64,000 bases of DNA, taken from Devosia lacusdianchii. GTDB taxonomy: Bacteria > Pseudomonadota > Alphaproteobacteria > Rhizobiales > Devosiaceae. The translations under genes and the position numbers were made by a program. Below, in pieces: positions 9,776 to 27,554 of this stretch. The notes below the pieces were generated by a model. The model ran no database searches. It was not told the DNA's origin and saw only the letters and a program-made list of their open reading frames with translations. The first letter of the stretch is position 1. Every line of letters starts with the position of its first letter. Location: positions 2,418,001-2,482,000 of the forward strand of contig NZ_CP092483.1 in assembly GCF_022429625.1 (NCBI RefSeq). The letters are read 5' to 3'.

Positions 9776-9781
9776 CGCATC

Positions 9782-11056: not shown

Positions 11057-12460
11057 ATGACCACCATCACCACCCGCATTACCCGCGCCGACCAGGCCGC
11101 CAATCCTTATTTCTACATCCCCTTCGACGTGCCCGCAGGCACGACTCGCATTGACGTCGCTCTTGCCTACCCCAAGGCTGAAGACTGCGTCATCGATCTC
11201 GGCGCCTTCGATCCGCGCGACACGGGCTATCCCAGCGCCGAAGGCTTTCGCGGCTGGAGTGGCGGTGCGCGCGACAGCTTCTTCATCGCCACCGATGATG
11301 CGACGCCCGGCTATGTGCATGGCGATATCCCCGCAGGCCGCTGGACCGTGATCCTTGGCCTCTACAAGGTTCCCGACGGTGGCACCGAGGTCGCCGTGAC
11401 CATCGCCCTCGACTCCGCGCTTCGTACGATCGAGCCGCAGCCAGCGCACACCACGCCGGTGCGCCAGGGCGCTGGCTGGTACAAGGGCGACCTGCATTGC
11501 CATACCTTCCATTCGGATGCGAAGGGCTCGCCCGAACTATTGCACGCCGCAGCGCGGCAAGCCGGGCTCGATTTCCTCGCCGTTGCCGACCATAACACCA
11601 CCACTCAGCGGCGTTATTTTCACCCGCAATCCTCGCCCGATCTGGTTTTCGTGCGGGCCATGGAAGTGACCACTGCCGGGGGCCACGCCAATGTCTATGG
11701 CGTCGACGCATGGATCGATTTCCGCATGACCCGGCCTGCCGACGCCCACACCCTGGCGCGACTGGTCCACGATAGGGGCGGCCTGCTGTCGATCAATCAC
11801 GACAAGCCGCCCATCGCCTGGGAATACGAGCTGCCGGAAGCCGATTGTCAGGAGGTCTGGCAATCGACCTGGATGGCGTGGAACTGGATCGCGCTTGACC
11901 GCTGGCAGCAGCGACTCGCCTCCGGCCTGCGGCTCTCGGCCATTGGCGGCTCGGACTATCACCAGCCCGCCCAGCTCATGCCCGAAGGCCCGCTGGTGTT
12001 GGCCCGCCCCACTACCGTGTTGTTTTTGCCCGAGCTCAGCGAGGACGCCGTGCTCGCCGCGATGAAATCGGGCCATGGCTATGTCACCGAGAGCCCCTCC
12101 GGGCCATCACTGGTGATGACCGTGGACGGTCAGCCGATGGGGTCCGTCGTCACCAAACCACGCCAAATGCGCGCCGAGGCAAAAGGCGCCCAAGGCGACA
12201 AGCTTGTGTGGATCGACGCCACCGGCGAGATCGGCTCCGCCCTGATCGACACCGACGACTGGCAGCACGAGATCGCCATGCCTGAGGCCAAGGACTTCAT
12301 CCGAGCCGAGATTGTCGCCATCGCCAGCCGCGAGCGCCTTAGCGCTGAATTCCTGGCGCTGATCGAGGGTCGCGAGCTGCCCTGGCAGCTCCGTGGCGTC
12401 AACCTTGCCGATCAGCCGATCCGCCGCGCGCTCGGCAATCCCATCTATATCGAGGCCTGA
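11057..12460 (+). CDS. PHP-domain metallohydrolase (CehA/McbA-like)
   Basis: A 467-residue protein in two parts. Residues 1-140 resemble a beta-sandwich, binding-type domain. A PHP domain follows with DLHCHTFHSDAKG (residue ~151), FLAVADHNTTT, SINHDKPP (residue ~253) and IGGSDYHQP (residue ~309), supplying the His/Asp metal ligands of a phosphoesterase-type site. PHP enzymes hydrolyse phosphoesters or, in CehA/McbA relatives, carbamate esters. No signal peptide is seen, so it is probably cytosolic. It sits in a sugar-import operon, suggesting action on the imported ligand. The start at 11057 is preferred over 11021, which lies by the repeat. Confidence 0.85.
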   Translation: MTTITTRITRADQAANPYFYIPFDVPAGTTRIDVALAYPKAEDCVIDLGAFDPRDTGYPSAEGFRGWSGGARDSFFIATDDATPGYVHGDIPAGRWTVILGLYKVPDGGTEVAVTIALDSALRTIEPQPAHTTPVRQGAGWYKGDLHCHTFHSDAKGSPELLHAAARQAGLDFLAVADHNTTTQRRYFHPQSSPDLVFVRAMEVTTAGGHANVYGVDAWIDFRMTRPADAHTLARLVHDRGGLLSINHDKPPIAWEYELPEADCQEVWQSTWMAWNWIALDRWQQRLASGLRLSAIGGSDYHQPAQLMPEGPLVLARPTTVLFLPELSEDAVLAAMKSGHGYVTESPSGPSLVMTVDGQPMGSVVTKPRQMRAEAKGAQGDKLVWIDATGEIGSALIDTDDWQHEIAMPEAKDFIRAEIVAIASRERLSAEFLALIEGRELPWQLRGVNLADQPIRRALGNPIYIEA

Positions 12461-13318: not shown

Positions 13319-14391
13319 GCCCTCAAATCAAAGTCGGCCTGATCGGCCTCGGTGAAGTCGCCCAGCTCATGCATCTGCCATTGCTGGCCGATGACCGTCG
13401 CTACGCCATATCAGCCATCACCGATGTGTCGCCTAGCCTGGTCGATTATGTCGCCACGCGATACGGCGTCCCCGTCAGCCATCCCGATGCTAACGCCCTC
13501 ATCGCCGATCCGGCGCTGGACGCAATCTTCATCCTGACACCCGACCATCTGCACGCCGAATTGCTTGAGAAAGCGATCCGGTCCGGCAAGCATGTATTCA
13601 TCGAAAAGCCTGCCTGCCTAACCGCCGACCAGCTTCGCCCGATCCTCGACATTCCACAGCACCCCGGCCAGGTGGTGTTCGTGGGCTATATGCGCCGTTT
13701 CTCGCGACCATTCCTCGAGCTCAAAAAGCGCCTGCCACAACTGGCCGAAATCCGCCACGTCCGCATTCGCGACATTATCCGCGAAGCGCCATTCTTCGTG
13801 GCACAGACCCGCAATACCTTCCGCCCGAACGATGTGCCCGCCGATATCATCACCGAAGGCCGCAGCCGAACCCAGGCCATGTTGCGCTCCGTCATGGGTG
13901 ACGACTGCCCCCCGGATGCCCTGCGTGCCTATCAGGTGCTGACCGGCCTCTCCTCACACAGCATCTCCGCCATGCGTGACCTGCTGGGAACACCCAAGGG
14001 CTGCTCCTATGCCGTCCAGCATCGCGGCGAGACGGTGATGGCGGTGTTCGACTACGGCCATTTCAGCGCCATCTACGAAGCCGTGATCGACGACGTGTCC
14101 CGCTTCGATGCCGGCATCGAGGTGCTGACCCAGCGCCAGCACTTCAAGATGAACTACGACACGCCCTATATCCGCAACCTGCCGACACGCCTCGAAATCA
14201 CCTCATCCAGCGATACCGATACCGGAACCGAGATCATCGGCCCGGTCTACGAAGATCCGTTCCGCATCGAGCTGGGTGCCTTCCATGAGAGCGTGACCAC
14301 TGGCGCCCTCAACCGCACAACACTCTCGGATTCCCTGGAGGACTTGGTGCTGTTCAAAGAGATCGCACGCCACTTCGGTAACGAAGCCTAG
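13315..14391 (+). CDS. Gfo/Idh/MocA-family NAD(P)-dependent oxidoreductase
   Basis: A 358-residue protein. The ATG at 13315 overlaps the previous TGA. A Rossmann motif, VGLIGLGEVAQLMH, lies at residues 6-19, and the conserved family segment HVFIEKPACL near residue 97 carries the catalytic lysine (EKP). Typical members oxidise or reduce sugars, inositols or amino-sugar derivatives. With the neighbouring IolE-like isomerase this looks like a keto-sugar or inositol-type pathway fed by the upstream transporter. Its stop TAG shares a CTAG with the stop of the convergent GMC gene. Confidence 0.9.
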   Translation: MSPQIKVGLIGLGEVAQLMHLPLLADDRRYAISAITDVSPSLVDYVATRYGVPVSHPDANALIADPALDAIFILTPDHLHAELLEKAIRSGKHVFIEKPACLTADQLRPILDIPQHPGQVVFVGYMRRFSRPFLELKKRLPQLAEIRHVRIRDIIREAPFFVAQTRNTFRPNDVPADIITEGRSRTQAMLRSVMGDDCPPDALRAYQVLTGLSSHSISAMRDLLGTPKGCSYAVQHRGETVMAVFDYGHFSAIYEAVIDDVSRFDAGIEVLTQRQHFKMNYDTPYIRNLPTRLEITSSSDTDTGTEIIGPVYEDPFRIELGAFHESVTTGALNRTTLSDSLEDLVLFKEIARHFGNEA

Positions 14392-16001
14392 TTCGTTGAT
14401 CCGCAAATCAAACCTGCCGCTTTTTCCGCAATCATGACGGCGGGGGCATGGGTGTTTCCGGACACGATGGTAGGCATGATCGAACAGTCGACGACGCGCA
14501 GACCCTCTATGCCCCGCACGCGCAGCGACGGATCGACAACCGCCATATCGTCAGTGCCCATCTTTGCGGTGCCGACCGGATGGAAGATGGTGGTTGCAAT
14601 GTCACCAGCGGCGCATACAAGCGCTTCGGGCGACTGGATTTCTGGGCCCGGCTTGAACTCCTCCGGCGTGTACTTCGCCAACTGCCGCGCGGCCATCAAC
14701 TGCCGCGCGGCTGTGATCGACTGGGCGGCAACGTCGCGGTCCCCCTGGGTTGCAAGGTAGTTGGGGGCAATCGTCGGATGGTCGTCGAATTTAGGGGATG
14801 CAATCCGCACGGAGCCGCGCGATTCCGGACGTAAATTGCAGACCGAGACGGTGATCGCCGGGAAGCGGTGCAACGACTGCCCGAACGTCTCCAGCGACAA
14901 CGGTTGGACGTGGAACTCGATGTTGGGCGTCTGGAAATGCGCCGCCGACTTCATGAAAATGCCGAGTTGGCTGGGAGCCATCGCCATCGGCCCCGAGCGC
15001 CACAACGCGTATTCGAGTGCTATGCGCGCCTTGCCGCCCAATGATGATTGCATTTCATTGAGCGTCCGCGTGTTCGCCACACGGAATGCGGTACGAATCT
15101 GCAGATGATCCTGCAGGTTTTCGCCGACCCCCGGCAGGTCATGGACGACTTCGATCCCGTGCTCTTGCAGCAGCCCGCCGGGGCCGACGCCCGAGAGCTG
15201 CAGGATTTGCGGCGTTCCGATGGCGCCGGCGGAGAGGACGACTTCGCGCGAAGCCGTGACCCTCGCCGACTTGCCGTTCAGTAGCAGGTGCAAGCCGGTC
15301 GCCCGTCGACCTTCGAAGATGACGCGTTCGGCTTGGGCGTGGGTGATAACGGTGAGATTGGCGCGGTGCCGTATCGGTCGAATGAAGGCGCGCACAGCAT
15401 TGAATCGGAAGCCGGCCTTCTGGTTCACCTCGAAGTAGGACGAGCCGAAATTGTCGCCGGAATTGAAGTCATCGACCTTGGGGATACCCAGCTCTTCGGC
15501 CGCCTCCCGCACGGCCTCCAGGATCGGCCAAGAGAGCCGTTGACGCTCGACGCGTAGTTCACCACCCTGGCCATGAGACGGGCCTGCCAGTCGATGATGG
15601 TTCTCCGACTTGACGAACAGCGGCAACACATCGTCCCAACCCCAGCCAGAATTACCCAGCAGGCGCCAGTGATCATAGTCGGCCGCCTGACCACGCATAT
15701 AGATCATGCCGTTGATGGATGAGCAGCCGCCCATCACCCGTCCTCGCGGATAGGCAAGAGAACGGCCATTTAATCCGCTCTGCGGCGCCGTGCGATACCC
15801 CCAGTCTGTCCGGGGATTGCCCATGCAGTAGAGGTAACCGACCGGAATGTGAATCCAATGATAGTTGTCCGATCCGCCTGCCTCCAGCAGGAGGACGCGT
15901 TTGGTCGCATCGGCGCTCAGCCGATTGGCCATAACGCAGCCCGCCGATCCGGCGCCAACGACGACATAGTCGTAGCGTCCGAGGTCGATCCGATTTTCCA
16001 T
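14388..16001 (-). CDS. GMC-family FAD-dependent oxidoreductase (choline/alcohol dehydrogenase-like)
   Basis: A 537-residue flavoprotein. The FAD-binding GxGxxG motif is YVVVGAGSAGCVMANRL near the N-terminus, GMC signature 1 is GRVMGGCSSINGMIYMRG (residue ~87), and signature 2 is SAGAIGTPQILQLSGVG (residue ~253). The C-terminal catalytic pair is H in FHPVGTAKMG and H in SGNTHAPAVM. GMC enzymes oxidise primary alcohols to aldehydes. An aldehyde dehydrogenase in the same run would complete oxidation to the acid. I chose ATG 16001 over TTG 16007. It is last in the leftward catabolic run. Confidence 0.93.
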   Translation of the reverse strand: MENRIDLGRYDYVVVGAGSAGCVMANRLSADATKRVLLLEAGGSDNYHWIHIPVGYLYCMGNPRTDWGYRTAPQSGLNGRSLAYPRGRVMGGCSSINGMIYMRGQAADYDHWRLLGNSGWGWDDVLPLFVKSENHHRLAGPSHGQGGELRVERQRLSWPILEAVREAAEELGIPKVDDFNSGDNFGSSYFEVNQKAGFRFNAVRAFIRPIRHRANLTVITHAQAERVIFEGRRATGLHLLLNGKSARVTASREVVLSAGAIGTPQILQLSGVGPGGLLQEHGIEVVHDLPGVGENLQDHLQIRTAFRVANTRTLNEMQSSLGGKARIALEYALWRSGPMAMAPSQLGIFMKSAAHFQTPNIEFHVQPLSLETFGQSLHRFPAITVSVCNLRPESRGSVRIASPKFDDHPTIAPNYLATQGDRDVAAQSITAARQLMAARQLAKYTPEEFKPGPEIQSPEALVCAAGDIATTIFHPVGTAKMGTDDMAVVDPSLRVRGIEGLRVVDCSIMPTIVSGNTHAPAVMIAEKAAGLICGSTN

Positions 16002-16025
16002 AACCAACCTACGACCTCAGATCGC

Positions 16026-16775
16026 TCAGATGACGTGTTCCACCGCAATACTGCGGCAGTCCATTTCGTATTCGAGGTCGACAACCGGCGGATTGTTGTA
16101 GTGCCAGGTCAAGCCTGCCCGTGCCGCCCCGCGGGAGACAATCTCGTCGGCAAGAAATGGGTAGAGGTTGTGAATGGTGTAGACTTGGACCGCCGTCGTG
16201 TCGTTCCAGCCAAATCCCAGTCCGCCAGCCCTACTTTCCATCTCGCAAAGAACAAACTGCGCCTTGGTGCGTAGCCCATCGGCAGACAAATCGCCTCGGC
16301 GAACGATATGATCGCGATAGGCCGCGTGCCCCTCAGGCACTTCCGCCGAGCCCGAGATCACGAAGGACGGTGTTGGGTCGTCGGAGGGCATCGTGAACGA
16401 AAACGCATAGATCGACGGTTCGGGCGGCGGGGCGATCTTGGGGCAGACGTTGCTTCTCGCCACCGGATTAAGCCCGGTCGTCAGCAGCCCCCAGGCCGCT
16501 AAGGTCTGCGTGTACTCCTCGTTGAAGGCTACAAATCCTTCCTCGGAAAACGGTGCCGGAGAGCGAAGTTCGCAGCCGGCGAAGGCGGTAAGGGGGCGAC
16601 CAGCGGCCCTGAGATACGCCTCGGCAACGGCAAATCCGTCCTTCAGCTTCAGCGGTTGCCGAAGCCTAGCGCGCTCCAGCCGAAAGCCTGGCAGAGCCGA
16701 AACGCCACCAGAATACTGAGAAACGCCTCGCAAAAACGAGTACCCCCCGGCGGAAAACTCAATAACTTCACCCAT
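16026..16775 (-). CDS. Unrecognised 249-aa protein of a catabolic operon
   Basis: A real gene on signal: AAGGAGAT precedes the ATG at ideal spacing, and the frame lies 24 bp upstream of the GMC gene and collinear with it. No signal peptide or membrane segment is seen. Distinctive stretches are YAFSFTMPSDDPTPSFVISG near residue 122, a region around GGLGFGWNDTTAVQVYTIHN near residue 187, and GLTWHYNNPPVVDLEYEMD near residue 222. The C-terminal half faintly recalls RidA/YjgF-type sequences (repeated hydrophobic strands, TTAVQVYT), but I cannot claim this. An isomerase, deaminase or hydrolase acting between the GMC and FAH steps is plausible. Confidence 0.75.
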   Translation of the reverse strand: MGEVIEFSAGGYSFLRGVSQYSGGVSALPGFRLERARLRQPLKLKDGFAVAEAYLRAAGRPLTAFAGCELRSPAPFSEEGFVAFNEEYTQTLAAWGLLTTGLNPVARSNVCPKIAPPPEPSIYAFSFTMPSDDPTPSFVISGSAEVPEGHAAYRDHIVRRGDLSADGLRTKAQFVLCEMESRAGGLGFGWNDTTAVQVYTIHNLYPFLADEIVSRGAARAGLTWHYNNPPVVDLEYEMDCRSIAVEHVI

Positions 16776-16906
16776 AGGGATCTCCTTGAAAATGCCGTTC
16801 GATCGGCCTTGGCCGTCGATATCGCTACGTGTACAGCGGGACTGACGTGGTCAGCGTTGTGCGGTTGGTGCGGACGCAATCAGTGGTGCGGCCAGTTGCG
16901 GGAGTC

Positions 16907-17779
16907 TCATTGCGCCCTCCCAGAAAGGGTCGTCTCAGGGGCGACGTAATTACGCAGCGTGCCGACATGCTCGATCACCACCTCGACCACATCGCCGGCT
17001 TTCATGAACAACGGCGGTACCCGCGTGAAACCGACACCCCCCGGTGTACCTGTCACGATGACGTCGCCGGCGCCCAGTGGCGTGATGCGCGAGATGTATG
17101 AGATCAGGCTCGCGACCGAGTGGATCATCTGGCTGGTACTGGCCGACTGCACCGTCTCGCCATTCAGGCGACAGGCGATCTCAAGGTCCTGCGGGTCGGC
17201 AATCTCGTCAGCCGTCACCAGGAAGGGCCCAAAGGCCCCCGTTCGTGGAAAATTCTTGCCGGGAAGGAATTGTGAGGAATGGGTCTGCCAGTCGCGGATC
17301 GAGCCGTCATTGTAGCAGGAGTATCCAGCGATGTGGCCGAGCGCAGCGTCAGACTCGACATGCCGCCCTGCCTTGCCGATGACCACCGCGAGTTCGGCTT
17401 CGAAGTCGAGCTGTTCCGATACCGATGGCAGTATGATCGGCTCACCATGCGCGCATTGCGAGTCGGCAAACCTTGAGAATAGGGGTGGTAGCTGGGTCGG
17501 CGCGTGCTTGGTTTCGGCCAGATGGTCCTGGTAATTGAGCCCCACGCAGATGATCTTTCGTGGCGCCGGGATCACCGGAAGCAGCTGCAGGTCGGACATC
17601 GCTACGAGTTGGGCATCATCGATGGCCCGAGTGGCGATCTCCAGGAATTGCGAGTGGGCGATCAACTCGGCGAGCGTGGGATAGTTACTGCCCAGAACCG
17701 CGCTGATGTCGGCGATCCGGTTGTCAACCAAGGCGCCATACCCGGCTCGATCATTGCGTATGAAGCTACAGAGTCTCAT
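16907..17779 (-). CDS. Fumarylacetoacetate hydrolase (FAH) family protein
   Basis: A 290-residue protein of the FAA_hydrolase fold. An N-terminal cap (residues 1-70) precedes the catalytic domain, with KIICVGLNYQDHLAE (residue ~75), the metal ligands in DFEAELAVVIGK (residue ~124), and YNDGSIRDWQ (residue ~155). ITPLGAGDVIVTGTPGGVGF near residue 235 is a further signature. Members cleave C-C bonds of acylpyruvates, decarboxylate oxaloacetate or hydrate 2-oxo-enoates. In this run it is likely a late step releasing pyruvate-type fragments. A 131-bp gap separates it from the 249-aa gene; I see no separate promoter there. Confidence 0.93.
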   Translation of the reverse strand: MRLCSFIRNDRAGYGALVDNRIADISAVLGSNYPTLAELIAHSQFLEIATRAIDDAQLVAMSDLQLLPVIPAPRKIICVGLNYQDHLAETKHAPTQLPPLFSRFADSQCAHGEPIILPSVSEQLDFEAELAVVIGKAGRHVESDAALGHIAGYSCYNDGSIRDWQTHSSQFLPGKNFPRTGAFGPFLVTADEIADPQDLEIACRLNGETVQSASTSQMIHSVASLISYISRITPLGAGDVIVTGTPGGVGFTRVPPLFMKAGDVVEVVIEHVGTLRNYVAPETTLSGRAQ

Positions 17780-17800
17780 GTCTTAACCGCGTGGGATTGT

Positions 17801-19261
17801 TCAGGTGATGTCGAAGGTGATGGTTTTGACGTCGGTGATTTCACGCAACGTGTGCTTGCCGCCCAACCGACCGAGCCCGCTGGCTTTGCCGGAAGCGCCG
17901 CCGAACGGCAGGTGCAACTCCCAGTAGCAGCTGGCGCTGTTGACGTTCACTAGGCCGGCGCGCAGCTTCTCGCTGAAGGCGAAAGCCTGGCTCAGGTCGC
18001 GCGTGAAGACGCTGGCCGCCAGGCCGTGCGATGACGCGTTGGCGGTCTCCAGCAGGTCGGCTGCGTCGGCGCACACCACCAGGGGGGCGACGGGTCCAAA
18101 TGTTTCCGACCTGTTGAGCAACGCATCTCGGGCAACCCGACCCATGACGGTCGGTTGATAGGAAAGGCCAGAGCCAGATACTCCAGGCCTACCCCCGGCG
18201 ATAAGTTCGCCGCCGCGCGCTAGGCCATCGGCCACATGTTCCTCGACCTTTGCGAAAACCTGGGCGTTGTTGAGCGGCCCCATCGTCGTTTCGAGTGCGA
18301 GAGGGTCGCCGAGGCGGATTGCCGATGCAATGTCGGCTATTCGCCGGGCGAGCGCATCGTGGTTCTTCCCAGTGACCAGGATACGGCCGGTGGCAGCACA
18401 AACTTGCCCCGCATTAAAAAAGCTGCCGAATGCAGCCGCTTCTGCGGCACGGTCCAGATCGGCGTCATCGAGCACCACCACCGGGCCATTGCCACCCAGT
18501 TCGAGCAGCATCGGTTTGCCCGCGCCCCGGGTGGCGATAATGTTTCCTGTGCCAGGGCTGCCTGTGAAACCGATCCCGTGCGTTCCGGGATTGGAAACAA
18601 CCTCGTCGCCCACCACCGCGCCAGGTCCGAAGACCACGTTGACCGCGCCGTCGGGAACGCCCGCGTCCACGAGGCACTCCACCAGCTTCGCGGCGCAGAG
18701 CGAGGTCGTCGGCGCCGGCACCCAGACAACGGCATTGCCGGCGGCCAGGCAGGGCGCGAGGTATTCGACCGGAATATTGATCGGAAAATTCCAGGGCGTG
18801 ACGACGGCGTAGACACCGCGGGCCTGGCGGAAGCTGATTGCGCGCTTCCCGGGCGTCTCGACCGGGATATATTCGCCTTCGAGCCACTTGATCAGCTCGC
18901 CTGCCTCACGGAATCCAGTCGCTGCTGCGTCGACTTCGGCATAGGCCTCGGTCGCCAGCGGCTTTCCCTGTTCAAGCGCCAGGATGGTGGCGAGCTCGTC
19001 CCTGCGCTTCTCGATGCTTTCGGCAACACGATTGCAGAGGCGCGCGCGGTCCCACGGCGATAGCTTAGCCAAGGCGACGAAGCCGGATGCCGCGGCCTTG
19101 ATCGCGTCCCGGGCGTCCTCGCGATCACCCTCGGCCACATGGCCGAGCAAGGTTCTGTTGAAAGGCGACCGCGCCTCGAAGGTCTTGCCAGCACGGGACG
19201 GCGTCCACCGCCCATTTATGAAATGATCGGCTTTGACCAGGCTTGGAGTGTTCAGCGTCAC
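17801..19261 (-). CDS. NAD(P)-dependent aldehyde dehydrogenase family protein
   Basis: A 486-residue ALDH. Cofactor-binding VTPWNFPINIPVEYLAPCLA lies near residue 155, the catalytic glutamate is in LLELGGNGPVV near residue 254, and the nucleophilic cysteine is in NAGQVCAATGRILV near residue 290. The C-terminal segment VNVNSASCYWELHLPFGG is also family-typical. The GTG start at 19261 overlaps the TGA of the amidohydrolase gene (GTGA), so the two are coupled. It probably oxidises the aldehyde made by the GMC enzyme or released by the amidohydrolase route. The substrate is not identifiable from sequence. Confidence 0.93.
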   Translation of the reverse strand: MTLNTPSLVKADHFINGRWTPSRAGKTFEARSPFNRTLLGHVAEGDREDARDAIKAAASGFVALAKLSPWDRARLCNRVAESIEKRRDELATILALEQGKPLATEAYAEVDAAATGFREAGELIKWLEGEYIPVETPGKRAISFRQARGVYAVVTPWNFPINIPVEYLAPCLAAGNAVVWVPAPTTSLCAAKLVECLVDAGVPDGAVNVVFGPGAVVGDEVVSNPGTHGIGFTGSPGTGNIIATRGAGKPMLLELGGNGPVVVLDDADLDRAAEAAAFGSFFNAGQVCAATGRILVTGKNHDALARRIADIASAIRLGDPLALETTMGPLNNAQVFAKVEEHVADGLARGGELIAGGRPGVSGSGLSYQPTVMGRVARDALLNRSETFGPVAPLVVCADAADLLETANASSHGLAASVFTRDLSQAFAFSEKLRAGLVNVNSASCYWELHLPFGGASGKASGLGRLGGKHTLREITDVKTITFDIT

Positions 19262-20433
19262 TTGCTACCCCCGGAAAATTGGCCCCGTTCGACGAGCGGC
19301 GAGCCGTCAGGACCGATCTCACGGCCCTTGACGATCAGCCGGTCGCAAACCAGCCGTCTCGAAACGGCGAGGGTTTCGCCCATCGCGTCCTTGAACGACC
19401 AGGGTTCCTCTTTCCATCTCAGGACAGCGATGTTGGCCTCGTCGCCCACAGCGATCCGCCCCAATTCCGGACGCCGCAGCACAGCCGCAGGATTGGTGCT
19501 GCCTCCCGCCAAGGCCGTTGTCGGATCCACGCCCAGCGCGATGAGCTTGTTTATCGTTGTGAGAAGGTCGAATGCCGGTCCGTTGACCGAGAGCGAATGA
19601 ATGTCAGAGCTGATCAGATCAGGAACAAAGCCCTCGGCGAGCATCTCGCGGCACACCTGGAACGAGAAGCCGCCCATGCCGTGACCGATATCGAAGTGAA
19701 CGCCGCGCTCGCGAGCCTGCCAGACCGTCTGGCGCACGCGACCCGCTTGCGTCGCTGCGTTGGGATCGGGGCGGCAGCAATGGGTGATGATGTCACCCTT
19801 GCGCAATTGCTGGAGAACTTCTTCGATCGTCGGCGGATCAAGGTCGACGTGGCACATGACCGGCAAACCGAGTCGATCCGCGACCTTGAGCGCAATCTCC
19901 AGCGCCTTGGCACCATTCTCGCCGGCGGCCTTGCGCCCAGCCCGGACCTTGATGCCGACCACCTTGTCCGGATGGGCCTGTGCCACCTCGATGCAGCTTT
20001 CGCTGTCGACAAGACGCATGTCGCAGCATTCGCCGACCATCACACGTGACGAGAAGCCAAAAATCCCCGGGAACGATATGTTCAGGTAGGCAAAGGTGTG
20101 GAACGGCGAGTCCTGGAAGATAAAGGAGTTCAGGCCCTCGAAATTGCCCGCGCCGGCCGATCCCGCATCCACAAACACCCCGGTTGCCGATCTATGCGCG
20201 ACAAGTTCGGGACGCACGCCGAGTGCCGTACCACCCCAATATATATGCGTATGGATGTCGGTCAGTGCGGGGGTGATGATGGCGCCGGATGCCTCGATAA
20301 CGATATCGCCCGCCATTGGGGAAATGTCGCCAACACCCGTGATACGGCCGTTCTGAATCGCGATATCAACGTTTGGCGCTTGACCGGTAAAGGCCAAGAC
20401 CTCTGCGCCCCTAAAAACTGTTCTTTGAGTCAT
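19258..20433 (-). CDS. Amidohydrolase/deacetylase family metallohydrolase (COG3964-like)
   Basis: A 391-residue amidohydrolase with N-terminal metal motif TDIHTHIYWGG (residue ~60), KVRAGRKAAGENG around the bridging-lysine region (residue ~163), LPVMCHVD (residue ~194), FDIGHGMGGFSF (residue ~257) and ISSDIHSLSVNGPAFD (residue ~283). This resembles dihydroorotase-like enzymes of COG3964, annotated as N-acyl-amino-acid or D-aminoacylase-type hydrolases. It is first of five genes read leftward from the TetR-controlled divergent promoter. I chose ATG 20433; upstream frame to 20496 would run into the promoter. The 5' leader carries a small GCCCGG...CCGGGC hairpin (20461-20480). Confidence 0.9.
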   Translation of the reverse strand: MTQRTVFRGAEVLAFTGQAPNVDIAIQNGRITGVGDISPMAGDIVIEASGAIITPALTDIHTHIYWGGTALGVRPELVAHRSATGVFVDAGSAGAGNFEGLNSFIFQDSPFHTFAYLNISFPGIFGFSSRVMVGECCDMRLVDSESCIEVAQAHPDKVVGIKVRAGRKAAGENGAKALEIALKVADRLGLPVMCHVDLDPPTIEEVLQQLRKGDIITHCCRPDPNAATQAGRVRQTVWQARERGVHFDIGHGMGGFSFQVCREMLAEGFVPDLISSDIHSLSVNGPAFDLLTTINKLIALGVDPTTALAGGSTNPAAVLRRPELGRIAVGDEANIAVLRWKEEPWSFKDAMGETLAVSRRLVCDRLIVKGREIGPDGSPLVERGQFSGGSK

Positions 20434-20498
20434 GGCTCTAGCTTGGGTGTGTTTTCGGAGGCCCGGCAGTGTCACCGGGCATCGCGAAAAAATCACAT

Positions 20499-20512
20499 AC
20501 TGACTAGTCAGT
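20499..20512. promoter_or_regulatory. Predicted operator for the TetR-family regulator
   Basis: ACTGACTAGTCAGT is a perfect 14-bp palindrome, the size and symmetry expected for a TetR-dimer site. It lies in the only divergent gap between the leftward catabolic genes and the rightward transporter-tetR operon, immediately before the TTGACA box of the latter. Repressor bound here could silence both directions. Confidence 0.65.
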
Positions 20513-20517
20513 CAATA

Positions 20518-20547
20518 TTGACAGCGACAAAAGCTTCGTCACATATG
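20518..20547 (+). promoter_or_regulatory. Promoter of the TetR-island transporter operon
   Basis: A consensus TTGACA (20518-20523) with CATATG (20542-20547) 18 bp downstream as a weak -10. The binding-protein start is at 20593 with GGAGGAG at 20580-20586. The operator palindrome ends 6 bp upstream of the -35 box. Confidence 0.5.
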
Positions 20548-20592
20548 CCGGTGTCATTCGACATTCACAACGTCACTCTGGAGGAGACGCTG

Positions 20593-21837
20593 ATGCGTAG
20601 AGGATTAATGGGAGGGCTGGTACTTGGCACCGCTCTGGTTGCAGTCATGCTGCAAACTGGAGGCGTGTGGGCAAAGGATACGGTCAGGGCCCGATTCGCC
20701 GAATACAGCACCAAAACTGGGCCATTCTTTCAGGAACTCGCGGACCAGTTCAACGCTGCCAATCCCGATATCGAGGTAAAGGTGGAGTACCTGCCCTGGC
20801 CCGAGATGCAGCAACAGCTGATGACCGATATCTCTGCCGGAACTGCGCCCGACATTTCGCACATGGCAACGCGCTGGATGGCGGGCTTTGCCGCTGATGG
20901 CGCCCTGGCGCCCATCGACGATCTGATGTCGCCCGGCTTTGCCGATACCTTCGTGCCGACCTATCTCGACCTGCAGAAGCAGGACGGCCAGACCTGGGGC
21001 CTCCCGATCGCCGCGTCGGCACGTGGCCTTTTCTACAATAAGGACCTGTTCGAGCGCGCAGGCGTCACCGAAATCCCCACCACCTGGGACGAGGCCTTCG
21101 AGGCGGCCAAGAAAATCAGCGCTCTTGGCGGCGACATCTACGGCATGGGCCTGCAGGGCAAAGACCTCGATACCGAGGGCTACTGGTTCTACTCGCTGTG
21201 GACGCATGGCGGCAGCATTATCGGGCCAGACGGCAAGAGCGGCTTTGCTTCTCCCGAGGCCGTAGCGGCGACCGAGAATTACCTTCGTTTCATCAGCGAA
21301 GGCCTGGCGCAGCCCGGTGTAACCGGATCCAGCCGCGAGGACCTTCAGAACCTGTTTGCCGCCGGCAAGCTCGGCATGGTCCTGTCCGGTCCCTGGTTCA
21401 ATGCCCAACTGGCCGAGCAGGGCAAGGACGTCGAATATGGCATCGCCCATATTCCGGTCGCCACGACCGAGGCGACCTATGGCGTCACCGACACCATTGC
21501 GATCGTGGAAGGCTCCGATGTGAAGCCGCAGGCCATGAAGTTCCTCGAGTTTATCTTCAACGAGGAAAACAGGCTCGCCTTCGGCAAGCTGGAAGGGTTC
21601 GTTCCGGTGCTGAAGTCGGAATCCACCGAACCTTTCTTCACCGAGAACCCAAACATGGCCGTGTTCCTGGAAATGGGGCCCGTAGCAAAGTTTGCTCCCC
21701 TGCTGCCCCGCTGGGAGGAAATGGCTGAAGGACTGAAATCGGAACTGGCTCTCATCTATTCCGGTGAGGTCGAGGTCGAGGCAGGTCTTCAGGCAGCCGC
21801 CGCCAAGATGGACGCCCTGCTCGCCGAAGAGCAGTAA
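20593..21837 (+). CDS. CUT1 solute-binding protein of the TetR island
   Basis: A 414-residue SBP_bac_1 protein. ATG 20593 follows GGAGGAGACGC. The signal peptide is MRRGLMGGLVLGTALVAVML...WA, and the mature protein begins near KDTVRARF. Family-typical stretches are FNAANPDIEVKVEYLPW (residue ~51), ISAGTAPDISHMATRW (residue ~80) and a C-terminal FLEFIFNEENRLAFGK. The frame is open far upstream, but that part is antisense to the amidohydrolase. It should deliver the substrate processed by the flanking enzymes. Confidence 0.93.
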   Translation: MRRGLMGGLVLGTALVAVMLQTGGVWAKDTVRARFAEYSTKTGPFFQELADQFNAANPDIEVKVEYLPWPEMQQQLMTDISAGTAPDISHMATRWMAGFAADGALAPIDDLMSPGFADTFVPTYLDLQKQDGQTWGLPIAASARGLFYNKDLFERAGVTEIPTTWDEAFEAAKKISALGGDIYGMGLQGKDLDTEGYWFYSLWTHGGSIIGPDGKSGFASPEAVAATENYLRFISEGLAQPGVTGSSREDLQNLFAAGKLGMVLSGPWFNAQLAEQGKDVEYGIAHIPVATTEATYGVTDTIAIVEGSDVKPQAMKFLEFIFNEENRLAFGKLEGFVPVLKSESTEPFFTENPNMAVFLEMGPVAKFAPLLPRWEEMAEGLKSELALIYSGEVEVEAGLQAAAAKMDALLAEEQ

Positions 21838-21857
21838 CGGCCGACTTCCGCAACAAT

Positions 21858-21885
21858 GCCAGGTGGCCACTCACGACCACCTGGC
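21858..21885 (+). other. Hairpin between binding-protein and permease genes
   Basis: GCCAGGTGG, a 10-nt loop, then CCACCTGGC: a perfect 9-bp stem 20 bp after the binding-protein stop and 28 bp before the permease start. There is no T-run. Its placement matches hairpins at 7940-7969 and 31663-31689. Confidence 0.7.
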
Positions 21886-21913
21886 GCATACCCATCGCGT
21901 ACGGGGAAAGAGT

Positions 21914-22843
21914 ATGAACGCTTTTCGAAAGGCGCCGGATATCGGACGGGCAGTCAATTCCGAGCGCTCGGCCTCGATGTGGGCCCTGCTCCTCGTTGCG
22001 CCTTGTCTGTTGCTATCGATTTCGGTGATTGGCTACCCAATTTTCGACGTCCTGCGCATGTCGCTATTCGACATCAGCCGCATCGGCGTTGTCCGCGATT
22101 TCGCCGGCCTCGAGAATTTCACGAAGACCTTTGCCGACCCGGTCTTCCTGCAAACCGCGTGGCAGACGCTCATCTGGACCGTTGCGGTAGTGGGCGGAAC
22201 GATCCTGGTATCGATCCCCATAGCGCTCATTCTTCACGAAGACTTCTATGGAAGAACCATCGCCCGAACCATCGTGCTCCTGCCCTGGGCGATCTCTCTC
22301 GCCATGACTGCGGTGGTCTGGCGCTATGTCGTCAACGGTGACTTCGGCACCCTCAACATGACCCTCTCTGCGCTGGGCCTGCCGGTCGGCAACTATCCTT
22401 GGCTTGCCGACGCCAGAGTAGCTTTCCTGATCGAGATTCTGGTCGGCATCCTTGTGTCGGTGCCGTTCACCGTCACCATCCTGCTGGGAGGGCTGACGTC
22501 GATCCCGAGTACCCTCTACGAGGCCTCCGCCATTGACGGCGCATCACCGTTCAATAGCTTTCGCCACATTACGATGCCATTGCTTTGGCCATTCATGCAA
22601 ATCGCCATCGTTCTGAACGTGATCTATGTATTCAACTCGTTCCCGATCATATGGATCATGACCAATGGCGGCCCATCCAATCGGACAGACATCTTGATTA
22701 CTTATGTCTACAAACAGGCATTTGCGTTCGGCAAGTTAGGCAACGCGGCTGCCGGTTCGGTGATCATGTTCGCTGCATTGCTGGGCTTTGCAATCATTTA
22801 CCTCTACCTGACGCGCTCGCGGGGAGCAAACAGCGATGTCTAA
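21914..22843 (+). CDS. CUT1 ABC transporter permease (MalF-like), TetR island
   Basis: A 309-residue inner-membrane protein. The start at 21914 follows GGGGAAAGAGT. Hydrophobic segments begin with WALLLVAPCLLLSISVIGYP (residue ~23), and the EAA loop (YEASAIDGASPFNSF ... MPLLWP) is near residue 203. The gene overlaps the next permease by 8 bp. It forms the channel for the island's importer. Confidence 0.92.
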   Translation: MNAFRKAPDIGRAVNSERSASMWALLLVAPCLLLSISVIGYPIFDVLRMSLFDISRIGVVRDFAGLENFTKTFADPVFLQTAWQTLIWTVAVVGGTILVSIPIALILHEDFYGRTIARTIVLLPWAISLAMTAVVWRYVVNGDFGTLNMTLSALGLPVGNYPWLADARVAFLIEILVGILVSVPFTVTILLGGLTSIPSTLYEASAIDGASPFNSFRHITMPLLWPFMQIAIVLNVIYVFNSFPIIWIMTNGGPSNRTDILITYVYKQAFAFGKLGNAAAGSVIMFAALLGFAIIYLYLTRSRGANSDV

Positions 22844-23663
22844 GGCCAAAAAAAGCATCCTGTGCTGGGCCTTGCTCTCGCCCTTCCTCATCGTCGTTCT
22901 GTTTCCCTACGCGACCATGCTATCGACCGCGCTCAAGCAAGAGGACGAGATCTTCACGTTCGAGCGGACGTGGCTGCCCCGCGATTTCTATCTGGGCAAT
23001 TTCGCGGAGCTGATGTTCGAGCGAGGATTCGGGCAGGCGCTCGGCAATTCTCTGATCATCAGCGTCGGGGCCACCCTGTTGTCGCTGGCCGTCGCCATTC
23101 CTGCCGCCTATGCGCTGACCCGCATGCGAGTGCCCGGCGAAGGCGCGCTGACTAATTACCTGCTGATCACCCAGATGATTTCGCCGATCGTGCTCATCCT
23201 GGGCCTGTTCCGGATGTTTGCTTACTTCGGGCTGATCAACAGCCTGTTTTCGGTCATCATCGCGCATAGCGCGTTCTTCACGGCCTTCGCGGTGTGGATG
23301 CTGAAAAGCTACTTCGCGACGATCCCCCAGGACCTCGAAGAGGCGGCATGGCTCGATGGCGCAAGCCGCTTCAGCGCCTTCATACGTGTCTTCCTGCCGC
23401 TTTGCCTGCCGGGTGTGGTGGTGACCTCGATCTTCACCTTCGTCAACTCATGGAACGAGTATGCGATGTCGCTGACCCTGCTGCGCGATGTCGCCCAGCA
23501 GACGGCCCCGGTGAAGATCGCCTTCCTGACCGGCACTCTCTACCAAATCGAATGGCACCTCATCATGGCGGCAACGCTTATCGCCTCGGTGCCGGTCGCA
23601 ATCGTATTCGCCAGTATCCAACGCTACCTCATTGGCGGCATGTCGCTGGGCGCAGTGAAATAG
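22836..23663 (+). CDS. CUT1 ABC transporter permease (MalG-like), TetR island
   Basis: A 275-residue permease. ATG 22836 lies inside the 3' end of the previous gene. The EAA loop (LEEAAWLDGASRFSAF ... LPLCLPG) is near residue 172, and the tail RYLIGGMSLGAVK is characteristic of MalG-type subunits. It pairs with the MalF-like subunit. The ATPase GTG start comes 9 bp after the stop. Confidence 0.92.
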   Translation: MSKAKKSILCWALLSPFLIVVLFPYATMLSTALKQEDEIFTFERTWLPRDFYLGNFAELMFERGFGQALGNSLIISVGATLLSLAVAIPAAYALTRMRVPGEGALTNYLLITQMISPIVLILGLFRMFAYFGLINSLFSVIIAHSAFFTAFAVWMLKSYFATIPQDLEEAAWLDGASRFSAFIRVFLPLCLPGVVVTSIFTFVNSWNEYAMSLTLLRDVAQQTAPVKIAFLTGTLYQIEWHLIMAATLIASVPVAIVFASIQRYLIGGMSLGAVK

Positions 23664-23672
23664 GAGGCCAGA

Positions 23673-24761
23673 GTGGCATCGATTCACCTCAAGAATGTGC
23701 GCAAGGAATTCGGCGCATTCAAAATCATCGACGACGTCAACATTGCCATCGAAGATCGCGAATTCGTCGTGCTCGTCGGGCCTTCCGGATGCGGCAAGTC
23801 CACGCTCCTCAGAATGATCGCCGGGCTTGAGTCCATTAGCGGCGGCGCCATAGAAATCGATGGCGAAGTCGTCAACGGTCTCGGCCCGCAGCGTCGCGAC
23901 CTGGCGATGGTGTTTCAGAGCTATGCTCTGTACCCCCACATGACGACGGCGCAGAATATCGGCTTTCCGCTCAAGCTGCGGGGCGCCAAGCAGGGGGACG
24001 TCGATCGGGCAGTGGCGGAGGTTGCATCCACGCTTCACCTGGACACGCTGCTCGACCGCCAGCCACGAGCCCTGTCGGGTGGTCAGCGTCAGCGCGTCGC
24101 CATGGGGCGGGCCATGGTGCGAGCGCCACGAGCCTTCCTGTTCGATGAACCGTTGAGCAATCTCGACGCCAAGCTGCGTCATCACATGCGTATCGAACTG
24201 CGCCAGCTACACAAATCGCTGGGTGCAACGTCGATCTATGTAACGCACGACCAGATTGAGGCCATGACGATGGCGGACCGCATTGTGGTCATGAACCGCG
24301 GCAAGATTGAGCAGATCGGCACGCCCCTGGAACTGTTCGACCGGCCCGCCAACGTCTTCGTCGCGGCATTCCTGGGATCGCCTACCATAAACTTTGCCAA
24401 GGCCGAACTGGCCGGCGAGGATAGCACCACCGTGATCCGCTTTGCCTCCGGTACGCAGCCTCTGACCCTAAGCGGGTTTCAGAGCAGTAGTGTCCAGGCC
24501 GTCATCGCCGGGGTGCGACCGCAGCATATCGAGATCATCGACCCCAGCCAGGCCCCGCTTACCGGGACTGTCGAGCTGGTGGAGCATACGGGCTGCGAGA
24601 CCAACATTATCCTCAAGGTCGGCACTGATGAATGGACGGTTCAATCGCGCACCCGCCGGCATGTGGTTTCCGGGGAGCGGGTCGGGTTGTCGTTCGACCC
24701 CGCGAACCTTCATTTGTTTGCGTCGGACACAGAAGAACGGATCGGATCGCTAAATGGGTGA
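23673..24761 (+). CDS. CUT1 ABC transporter ATP-binding protein, TetR island
   Basis: A 362-residue MalK-like ATPase with a GTG start at 23673 preceded by AGGAGGCCAGA. Walker A is GPSGCGKSTLL, the signature LSGGQRQRVAMGRAM, and Walker B FLFDEPLSNLDAKLR. A C-terminal TOBE-like region begins around residue 240. The last 8 bp overlap the TetR start (ATGGGTGA). It powers uptake through the two preceding permeases. Confidence 0.95.
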   Translation: MASIHLKNVRKEFGAFKIIDDVNIAIEDREFVVLVGPSGCGKSTLLRMIAGLESISGGAIEIDGEVVNGLGPQRRDLAMVFQSYALYPHMTTAQNIGFPLKLRGAKQGDVDRAVAEVASTLHLDTLLDRQPRALSGGQRQRVAMGRAMVRAPRAFLFDEPLSNLDAKLRHHMRIELRQLHKSLGATSIYVTHDQIEAMTMADRIVVMNRGKIEQIGTPLELFDRPANVFVAAFLGSPTINFAKAELAGEDSTTVIRFASGTQPLTLSGFQSSSVQAVIAGVRPQHIEIIDPSQAPLTGTVELVEHTGCETNIILKVGTDEWTVQSRTRRHVVSGERVGLSFDPANLHLFASDTEERIGSLNG

Positions 24762-25428
24762 GCAAAAATCCGCAGCTGAAACCAGCGCTCCCAAGAAGCG
24801 GGATCCCGAGCGGACCATGCGCACGGTGATCACCGCCGCCAGGGTCGAGTTTGCCGAATACGGCTACGACGGCGCACGAACGGACCGCATCGCGGCCGGA
24901 ACCGGGATGAGCAAGGGCGTGCTCTATCATTATTTCCGGTCCAAGGATGAGCTGTTCGTGGCGGTCCTGGAAGACATCTATCAGGAGCTTCGTTCGCAGA
25001 ATGAGGCCTTGGTTCTCGACGACTTCGAGCCCGAAGCCGGCATACGGGAGCTGATCGCCCATACCTACGACTACTTCGTGACCCATCCGGAATTCATTGT
25101 ACTGGTGAACGCCGAGAACCTGATGAAGGCGGTCCACCTGACGAAGTCGGAAAGCGTCCACAGCATGTTCGCGCCGCTCTCGACGCGCCTCGGCGAGTTG
25201 ATCCGGCGCGGCCAGGATCAAGGCATCTTTCGCCAGAATGTCGATATCATCGAGCTGTACGTATCGATTGTCGGCCTCGGCTATTTCTTCCTGTCCAATC
25301 GCTGGACACTCAGCGTTGTCTTCAATCGCGACCTGCTGGACGAGAGCGCCGAGGATAGGCGCCTCGCGCACATGACTGACATGGTCCTAGGCTACCTGCG
25401 CCATGTCGACCAGGATGCGCCGAAATGA
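24754..25428 (+). CDS. TetR/AcrR-family transcriptional regulator
   Basis: A 224-residue protein. After a short lysine-rich leader the TetR_N helix-turn-helix runs from about residue 25 to 70 (ARVEFAEYGYDGARTDRIAA, GMSKGVLYHYFRSKDELF). The C-terminal ligand/dimer domain fits the TetR_C_6-type fold (YVSIVGLGYFFLSNRWTLSV). It is encoded inside the transporter operon, overlapping the ATPase and the following PLP-enzyme gene (ATGA at 25425). The palindrome at 20499-20512 is the best operator candidate, implying autoregulation and control of both divergent operons. Confidence 0.93.
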   Translation: MGEQKSAAETSAPKKRDPERTMRTVITAARVEFAEYGYDGARTDRIAAGTGMSKGVLYHYFRSKDELFVAVLEDIYQELRSQNEALVLDDFEPEAGIRELIAHTYDYFVTHPEFIVLVNAENLMKAVHLTKSESVHSMFAPLSTRLGELIRRGQDQGIFRQNVDIIELYVSIVGLGYFFLSNRWTLSVVFNRDLLDESAEDRRLAHMTDMVLGYLRHVDQDAPK

Positions 25429-26510
25429 AGAACCTGAATCTGCCTCTCGCTGGAAATGAACTCTGGCGCGACGTCGTCGATACGCCTGCCGTTCTGATCG
25501 ACCTCGACATTGTCGAGCGCAACATCGTCCGCGGACAGGCCCGATTGGACGATCTGGGCCTCAAAGTCCGCCCGCACATCAAGACGCACAAATTGCCGCT
25601 TCTCGCCCATGCTCAGCTTGCCGCTGGCGCCATCGGCGTGACCGCCCAGAAGCTCGGCGAAGCCGAAGTCATGGCCGATGCGGGCGTCGAGGATACCCTG
25701 CTGAGCTACAATATAGTCGGAGAGCGCAAGCTTCGCCGCTTGCGGCAGCTCGCCGATAGGTGCCGTTTGACGGTGGTGGCGGACAGCGAGGAGATCGTCA
25801 GAGGACTTGCGGCCGCTTTCGAAGGCGCCTCGAAGCCACTCGCCGTGCTTGTCGAATGCGATACGGGAATGCGCCGATGCGGCGTCCTGACACCCGAAGC
25901 GGCGCTTCAACTCGCCAAATCAATCCATGGCAGGCCGGGGTTGAGGTTTGCGGGTCTCATGACCTATCCGGCTCCGGGCCAAGGCAATTCGGCTTGCGAA
26001 TGGCTGGAGGATGCAGCGCGTCTGGTGCGTGCGAACGGATTGACAGTGGAGTCTGTTTCCACCGGCGGTACGCCTGACCTTCATGCCCTGACTCATAACC
26101 CCTCGATCACCGAGTACAGGCCCGGCAGCTACGTCTACAACGACCGCTCGGTGCTATCTGCCGGTTCCTGCGCGGAGGCTGACTGTGCGCTCACAGTTCT
26201 CACCACGGTGGTCAGCTCACCAGAGGACAGGCGTGCTGTGGTCGATGCGGGGACCAAGGTCCTGACTTCGGATCTATTCGGATTTCGCGACTACGGCCTT
26301 GTCGTCGGACGTCCCGATATCTCCATTGTCTCCCTCAACGAGGAACACGGCCGTCTGGAGTGCGGTCAACAAGCGCCAGCAGTTGGCGATGTGTTGCGCG
26401 TAATACCCAACCATGCCTGCGTCGTGAGCAACATGGTCGACCATGTCCACTTCGTTCGCGGCGATTTCTTTGTTCACTCCGAAAGGGTGGCAGCGCGCGG
26501 CATGAGCTAG
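25425..26510 (+). CDS. D-serine dehydratase/D-threonine aldolase-like PLP enzyme (DSD1 family)
   Basis: A 361-residue fold-type III PLP protein. DTPAVLIDLDIVERNI and the PLP lysine in LKVRPHIKTHKLPLLA (residue ~50) define the alanine-racemase-like N-terminal barrel. The C-terminal NHACVVSNMVD (residue ~327) carries the His-x-Cys metal site of the D-serine dehydratase-like domain. Family members cleave or dehydrate D-beta-hydroxy-amino acids (D-threonine, D-threo-3-hydroxyaspartate, D-serine). It is the last gene of the rightward operon and is coupled to tetR. This suggests that a D-hydroxyamino-acid unit arises from the imported substrate. Confidence 0.9.
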   Translation: MKNLNLPLAGNELWRDVVDTPAVLIDLDIVERNIVRGQARLDDLGLKVRPHIKTHKLPLLAHAQLAAGAIGVTAQKLGEAEVMADAGVEDTLLSYNIVGERKLRRLRQLADRCRLTVVADSEEIVRGLAAAFEGASKPLAVLVECDTGMRRCGVLTPEAALQLAKSIHGRPGLRFAGLMTYPAPGQGNSACEWLEDAARLVRANGLTVESVSTGGTPDLHALTHNPSITEYRPGSYVYNDRSVLSAGSCAEADCALTVLTTVVSSPEDRRAVVDAGTKVLTSDLFGFRDYGLVVGRPDISIVSLNEEHGRLECGQQAPAVGDVLRVIPNHACVVSNMVDHVHFVRGDFFVHSERVAARGMS

Positions 26511-26534: not shown

Positions 26535-27554
26535 CTAAAGGCGGATCGGTTGGCCGTTGGACTGGATGATGGCGGCGATTAAGCGATGCACGGCCAGGAC
26601 ATCGCGCCCGGATGCGGCTGGCTGTCCGCCGGTTGCGATCGCGGCGGCAAAGTCCTCGATCAGGGCCTGATGAGCCCTGCTGGAAAATGCCATGGGATCG
26701 GCGCCCGATCCGGAACCGCTGTCAGCGCCTTCGAAGTCGATCTTGGTGCCGTCATGCAAAGCCACGGTGAGGTGTTCCCCGTCCAGCAGCGCGCTTCCCT
26801 TCTTTCCGATGATCTCGATGACGTCCGCGCGTCCTGGGAAGGCGCAGGTCGTGGCCGTAATGCTGCCAAGCGCACCATTGGCAAAGCGAAGTGTCGCGGC
26901 CGCCACATCTTCGCCCTCCATCACATGGACCGGGCTGGTCGAGGCAAACCCGGTTACCGTTTCAGGCGCACCAACCAGCGAGATCATCAGGTCCAGGTTG
27001 TGAATGGCCTGGGTCAGAAGCACGCCACCACCATCGCGCGCCAAGGTGCCGCGACCCGGCTCGTCATAATAACTCTGCGGGCGCCAGTAGCTTGTACGCG
27101 CGCTCACCTGCACCAATTGACCGAGGCGCCCCTCACCGATGATCGTCTTGAGCTCCCGCGCTGCCGGCCGGAACCTGTTTTGCAGCACAATTCCGAGAGT
27201 GATCCCGGCGGCTTCAGCAACGGTGACCAGTTGCTCGGCCCGCTCGAGGCTGACCTCGAGCGGCTTTTCCAGCAGCACATGCTTGCCGGCCGAAGCCGCC
27301 GTTTGCACGATTTCGAGATGCGTGTTGGGCGGGGTCAGCACCAAAACCGCATCGACACGCGGATCATTGAAGATCGCGTCGGCTGCATCCGTCGTCGGCA
27401 GACCATGGGTCCTGGCGAAGGCAGCGCGGCGATCGGCGGATGGACTGAAGGCGTGAAGAGTCTCGATCCGGTCACCCAGCAGCAGCAGCGCCCGAGCATG
27501 GGGCAGAGACGCCATACCCAGCCCGATAATGCCAATGCGGAGTTTTCTTGTCAT
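26535..27554 (-). CDS. Gfo/Idh/MocA-family oxidoreductase of the amino-sugar operon
   Basis: A 339-residue protein with Rossmann motif IGIIGLGMASLPHARAL near the N-terminus and catalytic-lysine segment HVLLEKPLEV (residue ~92). The ATG overlaps the stop of the ATPase gene. Relatives oxidise sugars, and some (GH109 type) use NAD to cleave N-acetylhexosaminides. As the final gene of an N-acetylamino-sugar operon either role is possible. Convergent with the PLP-enzyme gene, with a 24-bp gap lacking a clear terminator. Confidence 0.9.
   Translation of the reverse strand: MTRKLRIGIIGLGMASLPHARALLLLGDRIETLHAFSPSADRRAAFARTHGLPTTDAADAIFNDPRVDAVLVLTPPNTHLEIVQTAASAGKHVLLEKPLEVSLERAEQLVTVAEAAGITLGIVLQNRFRPAARELKTIIGEGRLGQLVQVSARTSYWRPQSYYDEPGRGTLARDGGGVLLTQAIHNLDLMISLVGAPETVTGFASTSPVHVMEGEDVAAATLRFANGALGSITATTCAFPGRADVIEIIGKKGSALLDGEHLTVALHDGTKIDFEGADSGSGSGADPMAFSSRAHQALIEDFAAAIATGGQPAASGRDVLAVHRLIAAIIQSNGQPIRL

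Follow-up and report, generated by a model that had tools for sequence, protein, structure and literature searches.

A rare, conserved eleven-gene island of Devosia lacusdianchii with a putative TetR operator, tentatively assigned to non-phosphorylating catabolism of an N-acylated amino compound

Three described catabolic routes, each cited here from the accessible part of its paper, were compared with an island of eleven genes at 14388-26510 of a 64,000-nt stretch of Devosia lacusdianchii (contig NZ_CP092483.1), hereafter the window, to whose positions all coordinates refer. In the ong system of Pseudoalteromonas, which serves oxidised chitin, an amidohydrolase deacetylase (OngB, D-aminoacylase-like), a fold-III pyridoxal phosphate (PLP) deaminase (OngC) and a RidA protein of imine-deaminase type (OngD) are each needed for growth on 2-(acetylamino)-2-deoxy-D-gluconic acid (GlcNAc1A), and no phosphorylation takes place ahead of deamination (PMC9537276). 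In the chd system of Nocardia testacea CS1, a GMC oxidoreductase, an aldehyde dehydrogenase (ALDH), an amide hydrolase and a threonine aldolase, the last acting on beta-hydroxy amino acids, are associated with chloramphenicol catabolism and accompanied by a transporter and a regulator (PMC13400229). Route III of Herbaspirillum, a non-phosphorylative pathway for sugar acids with 4-dehydrogenases and sugar-acid dehydratases and no amine chemistry described in the accessible text, includes an FAH-superfamily hydrolase that converts a 2,4-dioxo acid to pyruvate and a hydroxy acid (PMC6336799). By analogy, the island looks like a chd-like front, an ong-like middle and a Route III-like end.

Each of these systems has parts of its own. 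Those of ong are an SSS transporter, a MurR/RpiR regulator, the kinase KdgK and the RidA-family protein (PMC9537276, accessible part), whereas the island has a CUT1 importer, a TetR regulator, a CnbZ-family protein, FAH, ALDH and GMC enzymes, and an amidohydrolase nearest to PRK09237; neither a KdgK kinase nor an SSS transporter is among the eleven island proteins. The first two families of the ong trio are present, and a RidA-type third would depend on CnbZ being RidA-like. In chd the regulator is of the IclR type and the transporter of the oligopeptide type, and the enzymes include a hippurate hydrolase and an L-threonine aldolase; CnbZ and FAH are both missing from its gene list as far as accessible (PMC13400229). 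A member of the same NCBIfam family as the island's CnbZ lies on plasmid pCNB of Comamonas testosteroni CNB-1, where no CUT1 component, PLP enzyme or amidohydrolase is among the 13 features of an incomplete annotation list. No described pathway with this gene set was found in a literature search that left most subscription journals outside its reach. An earlier note made from this DNA had called the pathway apparently undescribed; on this search that stands for the full combination, but its logic has counterparts in the ong middle and the chd front.

ORF (open reading frame) lists, Pfam and NCBIfam confirmed the layout given in the earlier note, with five minus-strand and six plus-strand genes around a 159-bp gap holding one palindrome. 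Using tblastn, all eleven genes were located within ~15 kb at seven further places, at 61-89% identity and in at least three families. These places had been picked by a single gene, namely a close relative of CnbZ (a plasmid of Sinorhizobium sp. RAC02, L081, 76% identity; Kaistia granuli, L001, 73%) or of the DSD1-type PLP enzyme (genomes G322, G581, G642, G737 and G745), the other ten genes being independent of the choice. The co-occurrence check of enzyme families with the importer, which the note had proposed, was therefore positive, and its view that enzymes, importer and a dedicated TetR gene make up a single island gains support from the same eleven genes standing together in 8/8 clusters. 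One further locus (L125 in G375), on a contig equal in length to that of Kaistia granuli, gives the same matches. In Kaistia the genes are arranged differently, and FAH, CnbZ and GMC lie on the importer arm. The eight island copies of CnbZ form one clade (support 0.998, tree of 63 sequences). The full set was not found in the more distant relatives fetched (L090-L093, CnbZ 49-58%; L126-L128, DSD1 53-55%), which held at most single island members or other CUT1 genes, and among 80 CnbZ loci, several of them short, L001 was the only one with DSD1, TetR and GMC relatives (E 1e-10, 40% coverage).

The island is also rare. DSD1 relatives of at least 66% identity occurred in 3/397 genomes of the order (Hyphomicrobiales, as deduced from Kaistia belonging to it; own genome counted), and those with E 1e-130 or better in 5/394 genomes of the family of G322. 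CnbZ-family genes over the cutoff were found in 5/101 relatives, and a CnbZ profile built from an alignment of members matched 14/398 genomes of the phylum, own genome counted in both. A close copy of the ATPase of the right-hand neighbour was present in 10 of 75 same-genus genomes (the own genome and 9 others), and in the best 3 of those 9 the right-flank DNA aligned at 82-85% identity, with the alignments stopping at 26533 or 26543, just past DSD1. No comparable alignment of the left flank was obtained in the same three genomes. Rarity, spread over families and the right-hand border together suggest mobility of the island as one piece. By these comparisons it is a real, rare, conserved and compact unit, predicted to be catabolic.

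The divergent control region (20434..20592, 159 bp) lies between the ATG codons of the amidohydrolase (20433, minus strand) and the solute-binding protein (SBP; 20593, plus strand), and was compared across the 8 clusters. Its palindrome, ACTGACTAGTCAGT (20499-20512), is a 14-mer that at up to 2 mismatches occurs once in the window (0.02 expected; 2/100 shuffles contained one). A 15-mer including the palindrome had one other site in the genome, with 2 mismatches, which is chance level (a backwards control gave one match per strand). The longer element TTGACTGACTAGTCAGT (20499..20515, minus strand) is kept in the divergent gap of 8/8 clusters with at most 1 mismatch. Over its 17 positions the mean pairwise identity of the 8 clusters was 0.93 and 13/17 positions were invariant, compared with 0.52 and 25/140 in the ungapped flanks, values that the lack of gaps understates; the conserved block reaches somewhat past the 17 positions. 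A scan of the control region for sigma-70 promoters and terminators found none. The TetR-family regulator itself (24754..25428, plus strand; PF00440 and PF17938) is 66-83% identical across the seven other clusters. Since regulator and site are co-conserved, we infer that TTGACTGACTAGTCAGT is the operator of the island's own TetR.

The element recurs outside the gap. A two-gene module, which encodes a protein of 188-211 aa plus a second GMC enzyme (GMC2), adjoins 4/8 clusters (Kaistia, L081, L145 and L146), the search in L124, L144 and L147 having covered the fetched 20 kb. The module has its own operator copy in front in L081, L145 and L146; in Kaistia a second operator copy precedes FAH. No close homologue of GMC2 was found in the window genome (best E 2.7e-4). 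The small partner of GMC2 in Kaistia weakly matched Gluconate_2-dh3 (E 0.0079, below the cutoff), and that of L081 had no Gluconate_2-dh3 match at 0.01.

The importer arm begins with the CUT1-type SBP (20593..21837, plus; PF01547/PF13416), whose best solved relatives are 5ysb (Lin1841) and 8art (a putative maltose-binding protein), many others being named sugar-binding. It is followed on the same strand by permease 1 (21914..22843; PF00528), MalG-like permease 2 (22836..23663; NCBIfam MalG, GlcU and UgpE relatives, all under cutoff) and a UgpC/MalK-type ATPase (23673..24761; PRK11650, 469 bits against a cutoff of 432). The coordinates of permease 1 use its first ATG (21914) as a putative start; the ORF is listed from 21764 and then overlaps the SBP gene, and tblastn coverage in relatives was ~72-100% of the listed ORF with varying starts (78-100%) and does not discriminate between the two. 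The CUT1 importer and the GMC2 module with its own operator copies suggest a sugar- or polyol-like substrate, on which the binding protein gives a direct handle. Eight natural versions and a sharp candidate operator make this a testable, well-bounded regulon.

From the genes, their families and the kept motifs we infer, with a rough probability of 0.4 for the full scheme, a regulon for non-phosphorylating catabolism of an N-acylated amino compound, likeliest an amino sugar or the corresponding alcohol or acid. We regard the mechanism as moderately supported and the substrate class as weakly supported. The CUT1 system would import the substrate, and GMC and ALDH would oxidise a hydroxymethyl or aldehyde carbon beside the N-acyl carbon to a carboxylate. 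Removal of the acyl group by the amidohydrolase would then leave a beta-hydroxy-D-amino acid, from which the DSD1-type PLP enzyme would eliminate water, and CnbZ would turn the resulting enamine or imine into a 2-oxo-3-deoxy acid and ammonia. C4 may be oxidised by a GMC enzyme here (by a short-chain dehydrogenase/reductase, SDR, in a Variovorax relative), so that FAH could cleave a 2,4-dioxo acid to pyruvate and a hydroxy acid. TetR on TTGACTGACTAGTCAGT would repress both arms until released by the substrate or an intermediate. A narrower version, in which this is a kinase-free oxidative route for an N-acyl amino sugar or alditol, CnbZ is the dedicated imine hydrolase of DSD1 and a divergent two-domain RidA homologue, and FAH yields pyruvate directly, appears possible but rather doubtful.

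The dehydration step is best considered from the DSD1-type fold-III PLP enzyme (25425..26510, plus; PF01168/PF14031). The earlier note had left open whether this enzyme cleaves or dehydrates its substrate. It carries the D-ser_dehydrat domain (PF14031) and, at the metal site, NHAC (H330-A-C332), an H-x-C motif which we take to bind metal. NHAC is kept in 8/8 clusters and aligns with D-threo-3-hydroxyaspartate dehydratase 3wqc, also NHAC, whereas the D-threonine aldolases 4v15 and 7dib carry SHVD, the H-x-D type that is absent from the window enzyme; this alignment supports dehydration, even though 4v15 and 7dib outscore the other solved relatives over the full length. Dehydratases of the DSD1 type release an enamine or imine. 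Of the two options, the motif thus points to dehydration. A paralogue 54% identical to the island enzyme is present in the same genome (G000:C1:460900-463105; L128 ~8900-11117). It lies ~850 bp from a canonical RidA gene on the same strand, RidA first and, by eye, an SDR-like ORF between, which makes a second case of such a PLP enzyme beside an imine deaminase.

Judging by their names, the solved relatives of the island's PLP enzyme have D-threonine, D-serine and 3-hydroxyaspartate as substrates, and OngC deaminates D-serine and D-threonine too (PMC9537276, accessible part). The island might accordingly handle free beta-hydroxy-D-amino acids or their derivatives, with GMC, ALDH and FAH serving a second substrate under the same regulator. 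This is improbable in our view: all eleven genes stand together in 8/8 clusters and share a divergent gap that holds one operator, which argues for a single joint function. CUT1 systems, moreover, seldom take up amino acids.

For the oxidative front of the N-acyl amino compound scheme, the GMC oxidoreductase (14388..16007, minus; alternative start ATG at 16001; PF00732/PF05199) is choline-dehydrogenase-like, with 548 bits to PRK02106 (cutoff 605). The ALDH (17801..19261, minus; PF00171) could be assigned at family level, the best 25 of 43 NCBIfam families all scoring below their cutoffs, and its Cys/Glu motif regions are kept in 8/8. The best solved relative of the GMC enzyme is the chloramphenicol-inactivating oxidoreductase 8b7s (E 2.8e-104), and chd combines GMC, ALDH, an amide hydrolase, a threonine aldolase and a transporter (PMC13400229, accessible part), a pattern that would fit degradation of a non-sugar N-acyl-2-amino-1,3-diol, in which GMC and ALDH make an N-acyl-beta-hydroxy amino acid, the amidohydrolase deacylates it and the PLP enzyme cleaves or dehydrates the product. 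Yet the choline dehydrogenase 9lq0 scores practically equally (E 3.4e-104), the metal motif differs from that of D-threonine aldolases, the importer is CUT1, and CnbZ and FAH, as said, are missing from the accessible chd list; we consider such a diol an unlikely substrate. A chloramphenicol-type substrate, to which the GMC relative alone would lead, was not our first choice on the same grounds of the equal score of 9lq0, the non-aldolase PLP motif and the CUT1 importer.

The deacylation proposed in the N-acyl amino compound scheme falls to the amidohydrolase/deacetylase (19258..20433, minus), which is near PRK09237 (338 bits, cutoff 371) and 2ogj (E 1.6e-52). Its motif residues, presumably metal ligands, are kept in 8/8. 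Relatives cleave acetyl esters of R-hydroxy acids and also, though weakly, N-acetyl-D-serine. For the final cleavage, the FAH-superfamily enzyme (16907..17779, minus; PF01557) has solved relatives 8sky, 6j57 and 8gsr, and its nearest curated model is 2,4-didehydro-3-deoxy-L-rhamnonate hydrolase (NF053535), at 179 bits far below the cutoff of 500. A His86/Glu89 pair is kept in 8/8 clusters with the spacing of His83/Glu86 in the Route III hydrolase (PMC6336799, accessible part). Together, this nearest model, a hydrolase of 2,4-dioxo-3-deoxy sugar acids, and the pair support the FAH cleavage step; the pair excludes little, being common to solved FAH relatives of other function.

The remaining enzyme (16026..16775, minus), a 249-aa protein described as unknown in the earlier note, is indeed encoded there and belongs to the CnbZ family (2-amino-5-chloromuconate deaminase family; NF049982, 370.2 bits over residues 10-248, cutoff 220). 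The family name comes from nitroaromatic degradation and refers to deaminating an enamine acid. The window protein shares 47% identity, across the full length, with the CnbZ encoded on plasmid pCNB in Comamonas testosteroni CNB-1. No Pfam family was matched (best E 0.13 across 44 members). In local HHalign comparisons of a CnbZ alignment (63 sequences) with RidA (39 sequences), values of 12% for the whole protein, 14.9% for the N half and 19.6% for the C half were obtained (maximum 0.99% in 40 column shuffles of the C half), and global comparison gave 1.8% for the N half and 16.7% for the C half (E 0.00033). Smaller CnbZ and RidA alignments gave 11%, 1.4% and 15% for whole, N half and C half (30 shuffles reached no more than 2.5%). 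Comparison of the N half with the C half by HHalign indicated no repeat (0.1%). The likeness of CnbZ to RidA, chiefly in the C half, is suggestive, a lead rather than a demonstration. AmnE, the 2-aminomuconate enzyme of Pseudomonas AP-3, is a RidA-subfamily protein (PMC6742747, accessible part). The island could link CnbZ to imine-deaminase chemistry, and would place a family member in what appears to be natural amino-compound catabolism, not xenobiotic breakdown.

Neighbourhoods of cnbZ elsewhere were scanned at 12/80 loci (L001-L003, L005, L009, L011, L017, L021, L022, L027, L030 and L031), with L052 in part and L090 and L092 in addition. The neighbours were diverse (transporters of the LIV and oligopeptide types, a TctC receptor, a class-IV aminotransferase together with an SDR, a molybdenum hydroxylase and an enzyme of the enolase superfamily) and indicated no single role, most loci being without a recognisable island partner. 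Separately, we observed a tandem pair of CnbZ-family genes in G078 (L091 9155-10732; 58% and 49% identical to that of the window), a CnbZ relative (39%) between indolepyruvate ferredoxin oxidoreductase-family and amino acid racemase genes on a Streptomyces plasmid (L083 4355-9485), and a fold-III PLP decarboxylase-family gene (Orn_Arg_deC_N) directly before cnbZ in Roseomonas (L003 8495-9901).

Several observations weigh against the N-acyl amino compound scheme. OngC alone yields 2-keto-3-deoxygluconate (KDG) and ammonia in vitro and OngD yields none (PMC9537276, accessible part), so that a separate imine hydrolase is not strictly required for the chemistry. The similarity of CnbZ to RidA is suggestive at most, with little signal in the N half, and the activity that gave the family its name acts on aminomuconate. 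ALDH, FAH, the amidohydrolase and GMC all score under NCBIfam cutoffs among the matches listed, the GMC enzyme of L124, at 61%, is the most divergent and deviates in one active-site region, and C4 oxidation is without a clearly assigned enzyme. Finally, two Variovorax clusters (L021 6005-15882; L052 6850-15433) compactly combine CnbZ, FAH, ALDH, SDR and CUT1 genes without an amidohydrolase or DSD1 in the stretch examined. A search of the L021 genome for DSD1 relatives at E 1e-15 found none; in that of L052 there are three, of 36-40% identity, on a single large contig. These sets mark CnbZ, FAH, ALDH and importer as a separable core in which the coupling of CnbZ to DSD1 is not obligatory.

Such a core leaves room for an aminomuconate-type lower pathway, with ALDH acting on an amino-semialdehyde, CnbZ deaminating an enamine acid and FAH decarboxylating or hydrolysing an oxo-acid, and with the amidohydrolase, DSD1 and GMC as peripheral feeders. 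The naming of CnbZ for 2-amino-5-chloromuconate deamination, its identity to the CNB-1 enzyme, an FAH-family gene annotated ~9 kb from cnbZ on pCNB, and the joint presence of CnbZ, FAH and ALDH in Variovorax, once in a genome lacking a DSD1 relative, agree with it, as does the order of AmnC, AmnE and AmnD (ALDH, deaminase and decarboxylase) in consecutive steps of 2-aminophenol breakdown (PMC6742747, accessible part). We nevertheless give this pathway little likelihood: no ring-cleavage dioxygenase was matched among the eleven island and ten flanking proteins (two of the latter had no match at E 1e-8), a CUT1 importer and a dehydratase-type PLP enzyme misfit, and FAH and ALDH are below aromatic-pathway cutoffs among the matches listed. 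Upstream in L052, an ORF of 1608 aa carries lectin, PKD and Big_5 domains, and comparably long ORFs precede cnbZ in L009, L021 and L041.

An Rfam scan of 10000-38000 gave no match, and the two tRNA genes (3510-3594 and 53237-53312) are both far from the island. Island GC content was 0.589-0.628 in 3-kb steps, slightly low but not distinctive. Two proteins, encoded at 11021-12460 (479 aa) and 28649-29896 (415 aa), had no Pfam match at E 1e-8. On its right the island adjoins a leftward operon (26535-35501) for an ABC (ATP-binding cassette) importer with a GFO/IDH/MocA gene, a ceramidase-N-terminal-like gene (33082-34353) and a second amidohydrolase (34350-35501), and the DNA of this operon is kept in three same-genus genomes as far as the island border.

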